From the NCBI GenBank assembly GCA_031288305.1, contig JAITRP010000117.1, positions 1-35,687 of the forward strand: 35,687 nt of DNA. Reading direction: 5' to 3'. The notes under the pieces were generated by a model, which was given only the letters and a program-made list of their open reading frames with translations, was not told where the DNA came from and did not search any database. This DNA comes from Zoogloeaceae bacterium. GTDB lineage: Bacteria; Pseudomonadota; Gammaproteobacteria; Burkholderiales; Rhodocyclaceae. Of the stretch, positions 502 through 31,596 are shown in pieces (positions within the stretch are counted from its first letter, which is position 1; each line of letters starts with the position of its first letter). The position numbers and the translations under genes are program-made.

Positions 502-635
502 AGCAAGAAATTAGCGGCAGACCTTCAGGTCTGCCGGTCTAACGTCATTGGGAAGGGGTTTGCATCCCCTCCCCAATGGCTACGGTCGAAACCCCGGCCT
601 TCAGGGCGGGGTTTCAAACCAGAGTTAGTTTTACG
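502..635 (-). mobile_element. R2 element, copy 1 (134 bp, IS605-like non-autonomous)
   Basis: This is one of three copies in the window (others at 28700-28866 and 29796-29930). Read on the minus strand it begins CGTAAAACTAACTC and ends CTAATTTCTTGCT. Between are three inverted repeats: a CCCCGCCCTGAAGGCCGGGG-type hairpin, CATTGGGGAGGGG paired with CCCCTTCCCAATG, and CCGGCAGACCTGAAGGTCTG continuing to CCG. The left flank is TTTCAT. There is no open reading frame. Sharp shared ends, subterminal hairpins and a fixed left flank point to an element mobilised in trans by an IS200/IS605-type transposase; that assignment is inference. Confidence 0.7.
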
Positions 636-12472: not shown

Positions 12473-12963
12473 GAAATTTGCCTTTTTTGGTGAGCGGCAA
12501 AAAGTAAAAACCCACTTTTTGCCGGTTTGTCTTGGGTTTGAAACCAGGCAAATCCTGGCTTCAAACCGTATAAAAAAACCAACGTGAAACCCATCCGGCC
12601 TGGCGGCCAGTCACGTTGAATCGACGCAATTTTGGCGTGACTGCCTGCCGGAAGCCCCCTGTCCCTTCCCCTTTGTGGGAGAGGATGGCGCAAAGCGCCG
12701 GGAGGGAGCGGCTCAAAAGAGCAAAGCCGCTGAACTGTGGCTTCCCCTGACCCCTCCCCCGCAAGGAGGAAGGGGGACAAAAGCGTTTGCCCTGTCTTCA
12801 GGCATTTTGAATTTCATACGGTTCATTCAGCATGACGGACTACCAGAGTTTCGTTGCTTGCCTCACAAAACTGGATGAAGGTCGCCATGATAAGCTATCC
12901 GCGAATCTCTGCCCCTGTCCTGTCACCTGATCTATACTTTCCTCCTTCTGTCCGGAGTTTGTG
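12473..12963. repeat. Repeat-filled divergent gap galE / DUF4124 gene
   Basis: From galE outward it holds an R1 hairpin (12495-12524: GGCAAAAAGT paired with ACTTTTTGCC). Next is the R1 submodule GGGTTTGAAACC...CTTCAAACC at 12534-12570, then R3 (12611-12846). About 115 bases of apparently unique DNA follow. A TATACT sequence at 12933-12938 could be the -10 box for the DUF4124-ntrBC operon, with no convincing -35 box. No gene is seen. Confidence 0.7.
12611..12846 (+). repeat. R3 repeat, copy 1 (uninterrupted, 'empty site')
   Basis: About 236 bases beginning TCACGTTGAATCGACGC and ending CATGACGGACTACCAG. They match 28489-28699 plus 28867-28895 with only scattered changes and a few short indels. 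In this copy TTTCAT (12812-12817) is followed directly by ACGGTTCATTCA; in the other copy a 167-bp R2 element sits at exactly that junction. The repeat has no open reading frame and contains a CCCCTCCCCCGCAAGGAGG-like inverted segment. Confidence 0.8.
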
Positions 12964-16704: not shown

Positions 16705-17432
16705 TGCTGCTTTGCCTGGATGCGGGCAACAGCCGCCTGAAATGGGGCCTGAGCCAGGAGCGCGCGGGCGGCTGGCAGGGCCAGGGAGCCTTGTCCTGGA
16801 CGGATATCGCCCATCTGCCCCAGGCGCTTGCCGCCGCGGGCGCGGCATCGACGCCACATTCGGCGCGCCTGGCCAGTGTGGTCGGTCGCGAACGGGAAAC
16901 GCTGCTCCGGCGTGTGCTGCAGGCAGCCTATCCGCGCCTTGCGCTGGATGTTGTGCGTAGCGGCGCGGCAGCGGCGGGCGTATGTAACGGCTACAGCGCG
17001 CCGGAAACGCTGGGTGCGGATCGCTGGTGCGCCCTGATTGGCGCGCGCGCGCTGGAAGCGCGTCCCTGCCTGGTCGTCATGGCGGGCACAGCCACTACCG
17101 TGGATAGCCTGGATGCGGCGGGCAATTTCCTGGGCGGTCTGATTCTGCCGGGTTTGCAGATGATGCGAACGGCGCTCATGGAGGGCACGACGCTCTCCCC
17201 CGCGGTCCTGGGCGCGCATCTTCCTTTTCCCCGCAATACGGCGGACGCGATTGCCAGCGGTTGCCTGGAAGCTCAGGCAGGCGCCATCGAACGCGCCTTC
17301 CTGCGTTTGCCCGATGCCGCCTGTTGCCTTCTTTCCGGCGGCGCGGCGCCAACGCTGCTGCCGCTGCTCGCCGCGCTGCCCGCGCGCCATGTTCCCTGCC
17401 TAGTGCTGGAAGGTTTGCGCCGGATGGAGTAG
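16704..17432 (+). CDS. coaX: Type III pantothenate kinase
   Basis: CoaX phosphorylates pantothenate, the first step of coenzyme A synthesis, without feedback inhibition by CoA. This 242-residue ASKHA-fold protein has the phosphate-binding DAGNSRLKWG at 6-15, the conserved GADRWCALIGA, the TATTVDSLD motif (usually TAxTxD) and GGLILPGLQMMRTAL. birA-coaX adjacency is common in betaproteobacteria. The start overlaps birA. Three bases after the stop an R1 repeat begins (17435), which probably ends the transcript. Confidence 0.95.
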   Translation: MLLCLDAGNSRLKWGLSQERAGGWQGQGALSWTDIAHLPQALAAAGAASTPHSARLASVVGRERETLLRRVLQAAYPRLALDVVRSGAAAAGVCNGYSAPETLGADRWCALIGARALEARPCLVVMAGTATTVDSLDAAGNFLGGLILPGLQMMRTALMEGTTLSPAVLGAHLPFPRNTADAIASGCLEAQAGAIERAFLRLPDAACCLLSGGAAPTLLPLLAALPARHVPCLVLEGLRRME

Positions 17433-17743
17433 AAACGTCAAAACCTACTTTTTGCCCGGTTCAGTCAGCAAAAAAGGACAGGCAAAGCCTGCCTTTTCTG
17501 GGGTAAAGGCAACGCAACCCACTACCACCTGCACGGTACTGTAGGGGCGCACTGCGCGCGCCCGTCAGCCGTCACGCGGCGGATGATTTGCGGGCGCAGA
17601 GCGCTCCTATAACCACCATAAGGCCGAAAGCCGCGCAAAAAAAGCGGAGGGTTGCTTTTTGCCGCTTCTTGCGGGAGCGGATGCCGATGTTCGGGTCTGG
17701 TTTTGCTTTATCATGCCGTCTCCAGATTTTTTGGCCTTTTTTT
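17433..17743. repeat. R1 composite, degenerate copy, in the coaX / glycosyltransferase gap
   Basis: It begins ACGTCAAAACCTAC at 17435, an R1 terminus lacking eight internal bases. CTTTTTGCCCGGTTCAGTCAGC and the CAAAAAAGGACAGG...CCTGCCTTTTCTGG hairpin (17471-17502) follow, then a TAGGGGCGCACTGCGCGCGCCC palindrome near 17542-17563. The distal end (about 17620-17680) holds a GCCGCGCAAAAAAAGC...GCTTTTTGCCGC hairpin rather than a clean R1 terminus. No gene is seen. The glycosyltransferase start follows at 17744. Confidence 0.75.
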
Positions 17744-23461: not shown

Positions 23462-24319
23462 GTGTCTGCTCTGGTTTCCCCGCGTTTCGATTTGCATGTG
23501 CATTCCACGGCTTCGGATGGGCTGTTCACGCCGGAGGCGGTGGCGGCACGCGCGAAAGCGCGGGGGCTGGATGGGTTGGCATTGACCGATCACGACAGCG
23601 TGGCGGGGCTTGCCGCGGCGCGGCGGCAGGCGGCGGCGGAAGACCTGGTCTTCATCAATGGCGTGGAAATTTCCGTCGAATGGCAAGATACGCCCATACA
23701 CATCGTCGGGCTGGGCTTCGATGCGGCGCATCCGGGTCTGCTGGCGGGCTTGAAGACGACGCAGGATGGACGGCTGGAGCGGGCGCGACGCATGGACGCG
23801 GCATTGGCGGCGGCGGGCATTGCCGGTACGCTTGCCGGCGCGCTGCGGCACACGGCGCATCCGGCGCAGATTTCGCGCGCCCATTTTGCCCGCCATCTGG
23901 TGGAAATCGGCCTCTTTGCCGATACGGGCAAAGTATTCGAACAGTACCTGACGCCGGGAAAACCTGGCTACGTGCCGCATCGCTGGGCGACGCTCGCCGA
24001 GGCCGTCGGCTGGATACGCGCGGCAGGCGGCGTGGCGGTGGTGGCGCATCCGGGACGCTACGAAATCTCCAGCGGGCAGATGCGCGTGTTCCTGGGCGAG
24101 TTTCGCGATCTGGGCGGCGAGGCAATCGAAGTTTCCTCCGGCAGTCATGTGCCGGCGCATATGCGCCGTTTCGCGCGGCTGGCGCGATCATTCGGTTTTC
24201 ACGCCTCGCAGGGTTCGGACTTTCATGGCGGCGCCGGAGCGGATCTGGGCGGATTCGCGCCGCTGCCGGAAGACTTGCCGCCCGTCTGGCGCTTATTGAA
24301 TGGGGACGTCAAAAAGTGA
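23462..24319 (+). CDS. PHP-domain phosphoesterase (RNase AM / YciV-TrpH type)
   Basis: The PHP metal site is clear: LHVHSTASDG (11-20, H-x-H), LTDHDSV, NGVEISVEWQ and HIVGLGF, then VVAHPGRY and later GSDFHGG. The 285-residue length and insert (APQISRAHFARHLVE-like segment) match the YciV group. In E. coli that enzyme is RNase AM, a 5'-3' exonuclease trimming rRNA ends that also hydrolyses 3',5'-nucleoside bisphosphates. The start is GTG at 23462 with no clear ribosome binding site. The end is notable: the last codons read D-V-K-K-stop and lie inside the R1 terminal repeat that begins at 24306. It heads the order PHP-yciO-M50-trpS. Confidence 0.9.
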   Translation: MSALVSPRFDLHVHSTASDGLFTPEAVAARAKARGLDGLALTDHDSVAGLAAARRQAAAEDLVFINGVEISVEWQDTPIHIVGLGFDAAHPGLLAGLKTTQDGRLERARRMDAALAAAGIAGTLAGALRHTAHPAQISRAHFARHLVEIGLFADTGKVFEQYLTPGKPGYVPHRWATLAEAVGWIRAAGGVAVVAHPGRYEISSGQMRVFLGEFRDLGGEAIEVSSGSHVPAHMRRFARLARSFGFHASQGSDFHGGAGADLGGFAPLPEDLPPVWRLLNGDVKK

Positions 24320-24567
24320 AAGGCTACTTTTTGCCGGTTCGGCCAGCAAAAAAGGGCAAGCAAAGCTCGCCCTTTTTTGGTGTAAAGGCAAGGCAACCCA
24401 CTGCCTGTCCGCGCGATCCTGGATCCTGTAGGGACGCGCTGCGTGCGCCCCTGCGACAACCGCACCGCCCGCGCTGGTTTTTCGTTGGTTTTGCACGGTT
24501 TGAAGCCAGGCTTTGCCCGGTTTCAAACCCCGAAATAAACCGGAAGTAGGTTTTCACTTTTTGACGT
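24306..24567. mobile_element. R1 composite element, complete copy (262 bp, 22-bp terminal inverted repeats)
   Basis: The left terminus ACGTCAAAAAGTGAAAGGCT and the right terminus (24546-24567, GTAGGTTTTCACTTTTTGAC) are inverted repeats matching at 20 of 22 bases. Inside, in order, are a GCAAAAAAGGGCAAGC...GCTCGCCCTTTTTTGG hairpin (24350-24381), GTAGGGACGCGCTGCGTGCG ending in CCCCTGC near 24428-24454, and the CGGTTTGAAGCCAGGC...GGTTTCAAACC hairpin (about 24497-24530). There is no open reading frame. The left end overlaps the PHP stop; the right end lies ten bases before the yciO start. The copy at 31321-31596 has the same modules in the opposite order. Confidence 0.8.
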
Positions 24568-28488: not shown

Positions 28489-28895
28489 TCACGTTGAATC
28501 GACGCGATTTTGGCGTGACTGCCTGCCGGAAGCGCCCTGTCCCTCTCCCCCTTGTGAGGGAGGGCTTGCACCCTGCAAGGGGAGCGGCTCAAAAGAGCAA
28601 AGCCGTTGAACCGTGGCTTCCCCTCTCCCCTGACCCCTCCCCCGCAAGGAAGGAGGGGGAAAAAGCGTTTGCTCTGTCTTCAGGCACTTTGAGTTTCATC
28701 GTAAAACTAACTCCGGTTTGAAATCCCGCCCTTCAGGGCGGTGCGAAGGTCGAAACCCCGGCCTGAAGGCCGGGGGATCAATCCGTAGCCATTGGGGAGG
28801 GGAGAGAAACCCCTTCCCAATGGAGTTAAACCGGCAGCCCTGAAGGGCTGTCGCTAATTTCTTGCTAGGGTTCATTCAACATGACGAACTACTAG
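28489..28895 (+). repeat. R3 repeat, copy 2 (interrupted, 'filled site')
   Basis: 28489-28699 and 28867-28895 together align with 12611-12846. The first part runs from TCACGTTGAATCGACGC to GAGTTTCAT. The second part begins AGGGTTCATTCAACATGACG. Between them lies the 167-bp R2 element with no duplication of flanking bases. Confidence 0.8.
28700..28866 (+). mobile_element. R2 element, copy 2 (167 bp) inserted in R3
   Basis: It begins CGTAAAACTAACTCCGG and ends CTAATTTCTTGCT, the same ends as the other copies. It carries an extra GC-rich hairpin of about 30 bases (CGAAACCCCGGCCTGAAGGC), which makes it longer. The internal pair ATTGGGGAGGGG/CCCCTTCCCAAT and the terminal GGCAGCCCTGAAGGGCTGTC hairpin are intact. 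The left flank is TTTCAT. Boundaries are set by comparison with the uninterrupted R3 copy. Confidence 0.8.
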
Positions 28896-29008
28896 GATCG
28901 TGCGGATGGGTAGTGGGTTTTCTTGCATTTACTCCAAAAAAGGGCGAGCTACGCTTGCCATTTTTTGCTGACTGAACCGGCAAAAAGCGGGTTTTTACTT
29001 TTTGCCGC

Positions 29009-29653
29009 CTACCTCCCCTGCATGTTACCCCAGAGTTGTTTGTGCAATGGTAACTGAAAGCGCGCTTCCAGACCGTCGGCGAGGATCCATTCCGCCAGTT
29101 TCACGGGGGATTGCAGGCCATGCGCCGGGGAAAAGAATACCGGACAGCGCGCCGGAAACGGGCGCTCTGCCATTTTCGCGCGTGCCCAGTCATAATCCGC
29201 GCGGTCGGCGATGATGATTTTGAGTTCATCCCTGGGCGTGAGCAAGGCGAGATTTTCCCAGCGGTTCTTGTCCGCTTCGCCAGACGATGGCGTCTTGATA
29301 TCGACGATGCGCGCCACGCGCGCGTCCACGCCGCCAATGGCGAGCGCGCCGGATGTTTCCAGGCAAACTTCATAGCCCGCGTCGCACAGCGCCGCAAGCA
29401 GGACAAGACAGCGCTTCTGCGCCAGCGGCTCGCCGCCCGTGACGCAGATGTGCCGGGCAGGCCAGCGGCGCGCGGCGGCGAGGATCTCGTCTATCGTCAT
29501 GTCCTCGCCGCCGGAAAACGCATACGTCGTATCGCACCAACGGCAACGCAGCGGACACCCGGTCAGGCGAACGAACACGCTGGGCAAGCCCGCGCGCGAA
29601 GCTTCGCCCTGCAGGGAGAAAAAAAGCTCATGTACCCGCAGAGGGGCGCGCAT
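29009..29653 (-). CDS. queE: 7-carboxy-7-deazaguanine synthase (radical SAM)
   Basis: QueE makes 7-carboxy-7-deazaguanine from 6-carboxytetrahydropterin using a [4Fe-4S] cluster and SAM. The 214-residue protein opens MRAPLRVHELFFSLQGEASR. It has the cluster motif C-x3-C-x2-C in TGCPLRCRWCDTTYAF, the glycine-rich VTGGEPLAQK and the late FFSPAHGLQSPVKLAEWIL. I start at the ATG at 29653; the longer frame to 29773 adds residues encoded by the R1 repeat. There is no clear ribosome binding site, and the R1 terminus lies 17 bases upstream. The stop touches another R1 hairpin. queC, next in the pathway, is at 27090-27764. Confidence 0.95.
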   Translation of the reverse strand: MRAPLRVHELFFSLQGEASRAGLPSVFVRLTGCPLRCRWCDTTYAFSGGEDMTIDEILAAARRWPARHICVTGGEPLAQKRCLVLLAALCDAGYEVCLETSGALAIGGVDARVARIVDIKTPSSGEADKNRWENLALLTPRDELKIIIADRADYDWARAKMAERPFPARCPVFFSPAHGLQSPVKLAEWILADGLEARFQLPLHKQLWGNMQGR

Positions 29654-29670: not shown

Positions 29671-29977
29671 ACGTCAAAAAGTGAAACCCCTGCTTTTTGT
29701 GCGGCTTTTCCGCATCTGGCTTCGCCAGACCAGCCTTCGGCCTTGTGCCGGATAAATTTGGGGTTGAAGGCAAAGCAAATCTTCGCCTTCAACCCAGCAA
29801 GAAATTAGCGGCAGACCTTCAGGGCTGCCGGTCTAACGTCATTGGGGAGGAGTTTCTCTCCTCTCCCCAATGGCTACGGATTGATCCCCCGGCCTTCAGG
29901 GCGGGGTTTCAAAACGGAGTTGGTTTTACGATAAAAACCCAACGAAAAACCCATCCGGCGGGGTTTTGTTGCCTTTG
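29671..29977. repeat. R1 left half joined to R2, queE / cpoB gap
   Basis: 29671 begins with the R1 terminus ACGTCAAAAAGTGAAACCCC, then a GTGCGGCTTTTCCGC hairpin, TGGCTTCGCCAGACCAGCC, and the GGGTTGAAGGCAAAGC...CTTCGCCTTCAACCC hairpin (29760-29795). R2 copy 3 (29796-29930) replaces the expected remainder of R1. 29931-29977 ends with AACCCATCCGGCGGGGTTTTG, a possible terminator of cpoB. No gene is seen. Confidence 0.7.
29796..29930 (-). mobile_element. R2 element, copy 3 (135 bp)
   Basis: On the minus strand it reads CGTAAAACCAACTCCG...CTAATTTCTTGCT, with the same three inverted repeats as copy 1 (CCCCGCCCTGAAGGCCGGGG, ATTGGGGAGAGGAG paired with CTCCTCCCCAAT, and the CGGCAGCCCTGAAGGTCTGC hairpin). 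Changes in the middle hairpin occur on both arms (GGAGAGGAG/CTCCTCCCC versus GGAGGGG/CCCCTTCC), so pairing is largely retained. The left flank is TTTTAT, close to TTTCAT at the other copies. Confidence 0.75.
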
Positions 29978-31320: not shown

Positions 31321-31596
31321 GCGGGAAAAAGTGAAAACCCACTTTTTCCCGGGTTAATCAGGGTTTGAAGGCAAAGCAAAGTTTCGCCTTCAAACCGTGA
31401 AAAAGCAACGAAAAAACCAGCGCGATCCGCATGGTTCTCGTAGGGACGCACACGGCGCGCCCCTGCGACCGGTGTTCAGACCGGATGGGCGGCAGCAGTG
31501 GGTTTTCGTTGCCTTTCCCCCAAAAAAGGACGAGCTTTGCTTGCCCTTTTTTGCTGATCTGAACCGGCAAAAAGCAGGTTTTTGCTTTTTTGACGC
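31321..31596. mobile_element. R1 composite element, complete copy between tolB and pal (276 bp)
   Basis: The left terminus GCGGGAAAAAGTGAAAACCC forms a hairpin with ACTTTTTCCCG. Next come the GGGTTTGAAGGCAAAGC...TTCGCCTTCAAACC hairpin (about 31361-31398), GTAGGGACGCACACGGCGCG (31440-31459), CAGTGGGTTTTCGTTGCC, the CCAAAAAAGGACGAGC...GCTTGCCCTTTTTTGC hairpin (about 31520-31556), and the right terminus GGCAAAAAGCAGG...TTTTTTGACGC. The module order is the reverse of the copy at 24306-24567. The right end touches the tolB stop codon. There is no open reading frame. Confidence 0.8.

Follow-up and report, generated by a model that had tools for sequence, protein, structure and literature searches.

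R2, a probable transposase-free mobile element of the IS200/IS605 type with a conserved internal hairpin, in a Zoogloeaceae bacterium

R2 and the closest described elements

The autonomous insertion sequences IS608 and ISDra2 insert 3' of a short target that is retained on their left. They display subterminal hairpins, and a left guide next to the hairpin, on its 5' side, base-pairs with this target (PMC5934647, PMC8612924). In ISDra2, the structured right end gives rise to the omegaRNA or reRNA of TnpB, which carries the flanking sequence as guide, and the TAM is the insertion target (PMC8612924). Palindrome-associated transposable elements (PATEs), described in Haloquadratum, are free of a transposase, of inverted terminal repeats and of target duplications, and have near-terminal palindromes of the IS605 type, a short targeting sequence and core deletions mediated by repeats (PMC3119063). 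Finally, REP/BIME sequences and their REP-associated tyrosine transposases (RAYTs, TnpA_REP) combine hairpins, many dispersed copies and a probable HUH enzyme (PMC2817692, PMC6006769).

The repeat R2, analysed here in a window comprising the 35,687 nucleotides of contig JAITRP010000117.1 of a Zoogloeaceae bacterium, has features in common with each of these systems, yet differs from every one of them. Unlike IS608 and ISDra2, it carries neither tnpA nor tnpB, and its target is TTCAT (TTTAT or TTAT in other lineages). Compared to PATEs, it has two extra internal hairpins, covariation and a core that appears conserved between bacterial classes, and while PATEs resemble haloarchaeal IS605 elements (PMC3119063), no parent was found for R2. 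It is longer than REP/BIME sequences, its ends are fixed and distinct, its target pentamer lies outside the element, and a constant GTAG tag is lacking. In contrast to the ISDra2 omegaRNA/reRNA, no associated TnpB gene and no sequence or Rfam match was found. R2 is very probably a non-autonomous, transposase-free mobile element (MITE or PATE) of the IS200/IS605 type, which would be moved in trans.

A covariance-model search identified exactly three R2 copies in the window, at 640-502 (-), 28695-28866 (+) and 29935-29796 (-), coordinates that include the 5-nt left target, and the weaker rows of this search are the same palindromes on the opposite strand. The segment 29796-29930 is therefore exactly one element minus its 5-nt target. 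The full form is 167 nt long with four hairpins, H1 to H4 (Table 1), while the other two copies are deletion forms in which ~33 nt are gone between direct repeats in H1 and H2, fusing these hairpins; such repeat-mediated core deletions are as described for PATEs. The preliminary description of this locus had reported three stem-loops in the same order in all three copies: the order is indeed kept, but the complete element has four hairpins, and three result from the H1/H2 fusion in the two shortened copies. A domain search placed the copy at 29796-29930 between cpoB and queE within a tolB-pal-cpoB-queE run (gene names inferred from domains). This position looks incidental, and read-through transcription is possible because the copy lies on the same strand as these genes. 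Further families of dispersed palindromes (GGCAAAAAGT...ACTTTTTGCC and others) occupy the regions between the genes of the window, for example at 12495-12527, 17428-17460, 24307-24339, 28978-29010 and 31322-31354, among other positions.

Table 1 Coordinates of R2 features in the window.
Feature	Position	Strand	Basis
R2 copy, 135-nt deletion form, H1/H2 fused	29796..29930	-	covariance model, 121.9 bits
Right end TTTCTTGCT of copy 29796-29930	29796-29804	-	covariance model
Left target TTTAT (TTCAT with one change) of copy 29796-29930	29931..29935	-	
Hairpin H3 of copy 29796-29930	29840..29872	-	
Right-end hairpin H4 of copy 29796-29930, limits approximate	29810..29830	-	
Complete R2 element, 167 nt	28700..28866	+	empty site; covariance model, 194.8 bits
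Left target TTCAT of complete copy	28695..28699	+	
H1 of complete copy, left-end hairpin, guide TGAA directly 5'	28726..28741	+	
H2 of complete copy	28756..28775	+	
H3 of complete copy, internal hairpin, near-invariant core and covarying outer arms	28790..28822	+	
H4 of complete copy, right-end hairpin, followed by GCTAATTTCTTGCT	28833..28852	+	
Third R2 copy, deletion form, left target TTCAT at 636-640	502..635	-	covariance model, 148.7 bits
Paralogous site without R2 (junction 12817/12818), corresponding to the left and right flanks of copy 28700	12758..12850	+	

Boundaries, target choice and fold

The boundaries of R2 can be read from an empty site within the same window, where TTTCAT is followed directly by ACGGTTCATTCAGC at 12817/12818, compared to TTTCAT, R2 and then AGGGTTCATTCAAC at 28699/28867. 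Insertion thus took place immediately 3' of TTTCAT and left no duplication. A second empty and filled pair consists of locus L100, where R2 lies between tnpA and tnpB of an IS605 element, and the homologous locus L092 without R2. Among 60 extracted copies, TTCAT adjoins 49 and TTGCT is the terminus of 47, and a 4-nt target duplication was found in none of the 58 copies checked. The two termini, CGTAAAAC and TTTCTTGCT, do not form inverted repeats, and each end has a subterminal hairpin, H1 on the left and H4 on the right.

The tetramer next to the left hairpin follows the target. In the family of R2 itself, the guide is TGAA and the target TTCAT, while other lineages of the order have the guide TAAA, with TTTAT or TTAT in place of TTCAT. 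Among de-duplicated copies, TGAA occurs with TTCAT in 78, TTGAT in eight and TTTAT in two, and TAAA with TTTAT/TTAT in 18, and with TTCAT and TTGAT in one each (Fisher p = 1.4e-16 for the two main classes); 50 further rows had no parsed target, mostly since the pattern met the similar foot of H2 or a flank such as GTCAT. The association is meaningful because each insertion chooses its own target, even though guides are shared by descent. This covariation of guide and target between lineages follows the rule of IS608, in which the target is base-paired with the left guide (PMC5934647). On the right side, inspection by eye for canonical pairs gave no consistent complement of TTGCT 5' of H4.

Single-strand folding of the complete copy was more stable than that of shuffled sequences both as RNA (z -6.1) and as DNA (z -5.9), and the copy at 29796-29930 reached z -3.3. 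An alignment was made of 37 elements, drawn from 17 genomes and a plasmid. Of its pairing cells, 94.3% pair, and covariation is found in all four hairpins. Covariation analysis of this alignment showed changes on both sides in 18 of 35 pairs and a covariation score of 0.307, compared to 0.113 in shuffled alignments and at most 0.078 in slid ones, where shuffle counts are not probabilities because the aligned sequences are related, while slid controls keep that relatedness. The R2 structure is kept by genuine covariation across species. Both-arm changes had already been described for the middle stem, and across species this compensation is real, but between the window copies it is not clean: in register, copy 29796 differs from copy 28700 by one G.U to G-C, one G-C to G.U and one G-C to A.C change, and its stem reaches full pairing only if the register is shifted and 2 nt bulge out. 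Pairing of the left end with the 3' arm of H2 would give an alternative long stem with a similar score. CCGTAAGAAAGG-type versions of H1, H2 or both occur in some lineages (L130:102-266, L123:101-271 and L196 near 265), and where both are of this type, the segments are reverse complements, as if the hairpins had been swapped or inverted.

H1 (7/12), H2 (6/9) and H4 (6/6) have similar numbers of G.U and A.C cells, while the ratio of 43/10 in H3 comes mainly from one conserved wobble position, which is G.U in 28 of the 37 elements, G-C in six and A-U in three, and from the outermost pair. As G.U is no commoner than A.C outside those two positions, there is no general RNA-type wobble signature, and the data show selection on hairpins of a single strand without singling out RNA.

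Taken together, R2 displays sharp boundaries, one target kept on the left, no duplication, guide/target covariation, covarying hairpins, a high copy number and no genes. We infer an HUH/Y1 enzyme, a single-stranded intermediate and supply in trans. A Y1 (HUH) TnpA acting in trans would bind H1 and H4, the hairpins at the two ends, on a single DNA strand and excise R2 as single-stranded DNA. Insertion would follow immediately 3' of TTCAT, a target that the guide TGAA next to H1 would recognise through base pairing. Since the target would be chosen by a guide in the DNA itself, R2 might in principle also be moved by an IS605 TnpA that has another target, provided that this enzyme binds the R2 hairpins.

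The internal hairpin and the rival readings

In the known IS200/IS605 mechanism, the terminal hairpins suffice, and H2 and H3 are not required. The interior is nonetheless conserved, and the upkeep of H3 with its covarying outer arms is not predicted by terminal-hairpin transposition alone. H3 has the form GGGAGGGG-loop-ACCCCTYCC, with the near-invariant core GGAGGGG opposite CCCCTTCC, around which five outer pairs are rewritten on both sides in the 37-element alignment. H3 appears to be kept in several bacterial classes, and this breadth, together with the internal hairpin, is new here. It could be speculated that R2, besides being mobile, carries a functional module, H3 being kept as an RNA or as a protein-binding single-stranded DNA hairpin. 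We regard this as a tentative possibility, and the same holds for the example of H3 as a stabilising or regulatory hairpin in read-through transcripts. Pointing in this direction are the pair-by-pair rewriting of the outer arms around a near-invariant core, the presence of the same core inside otherwise dissimilar elements of Betaproteobacteria, Methylococcales, Mailhella and Oligoflexales, the wobble position with G-C or A-U in the nine elements where it is not G.U, and the location of copy 29796-29930 on the coding strand of the tol-pal-cpoB-queE run. However, single deletion forms without H3 exist, the distant matches were found by probing with the H3 core, and a general G.U excess is absent. 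Somewhat more doubtful is the wider proposal that H3 might be a conserved functional module, as RNA or single-stranded DNA, spread by single-strand transposition across proteobacterial classes and beyond and bound by a host or transposon protein, with the transposase-free elements forming a lineage of their own instead of being recent wrecks of local insertion sequences.

Two other explanations concern the nature of R2 as a whole. The preliminary description had suggested that R2 may encode a structured RNA related to TnpB omegaRNA. In this reading, R2 would be a guide RNA scaffold transcribed through the right end into the flank, and would guide a TnpB to the flanking sequence with the TAM TTCAT. 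Its observation of a structured sequence ending in a fixed tail was sound, as the conserved, covarying R2 ends at a fixed right end of IS200/IS605 type; this geometry fits the ISDra2 reRNA plan, though it would fit any element of that type. A relation to TnpB itself was not supported. No TnpB domain was found in the genome of origin, a point of little weight as the MAG is 90% complete, and the search for a TnpB gene with the 3' end of R2 was negative in this genome and 16 relatives. TnpB is present in seven of the 16 relatives, with 3' ends that are unrelated to R2, being GGAATCCCC-stem-GGGGAGGATGTCAA, IS607-type or truncated. Moreover, R2 never flanks a TnpB gene in 88 loci, R2-rich genomes without TnpB exist (G003, G011, G012 and G018), the general G.U excess is lacking, and no Rfam family matched at gathering score, the sub-threshold matches in R2 looking like chance. 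A TnpB guide RNA is thus highly improbable, and selection through transposition, which had been named as the alternative, fits better. As to the omegaRNA of IscB (HEARO), HEARO was not among the Rfam results, and the RRXRR domain of IscB gave no match in 22 genomes, but it matched in none of the control genomes either, so that this negative carries no weight.

A spread of R2 as a REP/BIME-like repeat by a RAYT is likewise improbable. Its hairpin repeats are dispersed, REP sequences also have a tetranucleotide guide 5' of the hairpin (PMC6006769), Y1 proteins of RAYT size are encoded in some R2-bearing genomes, and GTAG stands just before H3 in part of the family. Yet the constant GTAG/GGAG tag 5' of a hairpin is absent from R2, as other lineages with the same architecture lack GTAG, and the ends are fixed and distinct with an external target, while Y1 genes were not found in several R2-rich genomes.

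Distribution and the search for a parent transposase

The genome of origin is a MAG of 2.7 Mb in 224 contigs, where a first look gave ~195 candidate places for R2, which are not counted copies; all 40 places scored were strong, and the copies probably number well over a hundred. Of 20 congeners, 15 contain R2 matches, as do a few more genomes from the family and the order; one congener had 306 first-look places, and a different genus of this family had 133. Polaromonas sp. JS666 carries one copy on a conjugative plasmid. When 383 genomes of the class were scanned with the model, all matches beyond the genome of origin were weak, and the family is therefore patchy. An exact scan for the H3 core identified at least 100 stretches, where identity of the core is by construction of the probe and the surrounding architecture is not. 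Among the matches listed are Zoogloeaceae/Azoarcus and Accumulibacter MAGs, Azonexus, Rhodocyclaceae and other Betaproteobacteria, as well as Methylococcales, Methylobacter, Mailhella and Oligoflexales. One match (L203) looks like chance, while nearly all other loci hold the same kind of element with different ends; those in Mailhella, for instance, read TTCATC...CATTATTGCT, and those in Oligoflexales TTGAC...ATATTGCAT. At ~1500-1650 of L324, L331 and L326 (G674, G684) lie distant elements whose left end resembles that of R2 (a TTCATC...GGTTGAAACCTC hairpin) and whose right side ends in CRISPR-repeat-like GTGGATTGAAAC or TATGGATTGAAAC.

A Y1 transposase gene with the ends of R2 was found neither in the genome of origin nor in 16 relatives and up to 28 further genomes over five search rounds, and no autonomous relative sharing these ends was found in about 40 genomes. 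In a covariance search of 88 TnpA/TnpB loci (244 kb), R2 occurred only as whole non-coding copies of ~165 nt or as end fragments, and never split around a gene or as the ends of a gene-bearing element. The right-end 17-mer gave 23 stretches in viral contigs, none with the hairpin. This missing parent, together with several R2-rich congeners in which no Y1 domain was found, counts against the IS200/IS605-type reading. Local absence is weak evidence, since genes present in several copies drop out of short-read MAGs; the mismatch of ends, which was found repeatedly, carries more weight. In the genome of origin, an IS605-type tnpA is cut by a contig end (L032), and about 15 of the 40 copies listed for this genome lie at contig ends (e.g., G000:C73, C85, C15, C121, C193 and C190), so R2 interrupts the assembly, and the MAG may lack genes that occur in several copies.

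The IS605 elements of congeners (e.g., G015:C173, L092) have a left hairpin, CCCGCCCTTCAGGGCGG, near identical to H1 of R2, and the hairpin apices CCTTCAGG/CCTGAAGG recur in both. However, they carry tnpA and tnpB, their left flank is TTGAC with CAAG before the hairpin, and their right end is a GGAATCCCC stem followed by AGGATGTCAA. R2 as an end of these elements was dropped for their different targets and right ends. The right-end motif of R2 next to TnpB in L086 and L092 was likewise rejected, as it is part of a 48-bp palindrome that lies beyond the IS605 element, and this element itself ends in AGGATGTCAA. In L092 (17-64; G015:C173), this perfect palindrome consists of two inverted R2 right ends (AGCAAGAAATTAGCGACAGCCC...GGGCTGTCGCTAATTTCTTGCT) ~130 nt past the end of the IS605 tnpB, and is perhaps a collapsed pair of inverted copies. 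At L088:1460-1750 (G005:C20), the R2 left end is joined directly to a C-terminal fragment of an IS607-type TnpB; with R2 truncated at the junction, this is probably a deletion junction and was discarded as an R2-ended TnpB element. R2 was also seen beside or inside tnpA of IS200/IS605 elements in three genomes (L313:1352-1629, L033:1501-1780 and L100:1915-2085), which may be chance, as the copy number is high and the loci were fetched by tnpA.

As a probable mobile element, R2 represents a family absent from the literature searched, which fills the genomes of presumably termite-gut and related Rhodocyclales, with many contigs ending in it, and which is met again, with the conserved internal hairpin, in distant Proteobacteria. 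Through R2, the guide/target pairing rule of IS608 becomes visible in naturally occurring sequences. If H3 is functional, elements of the R2 type would spread a structured module through genomes.
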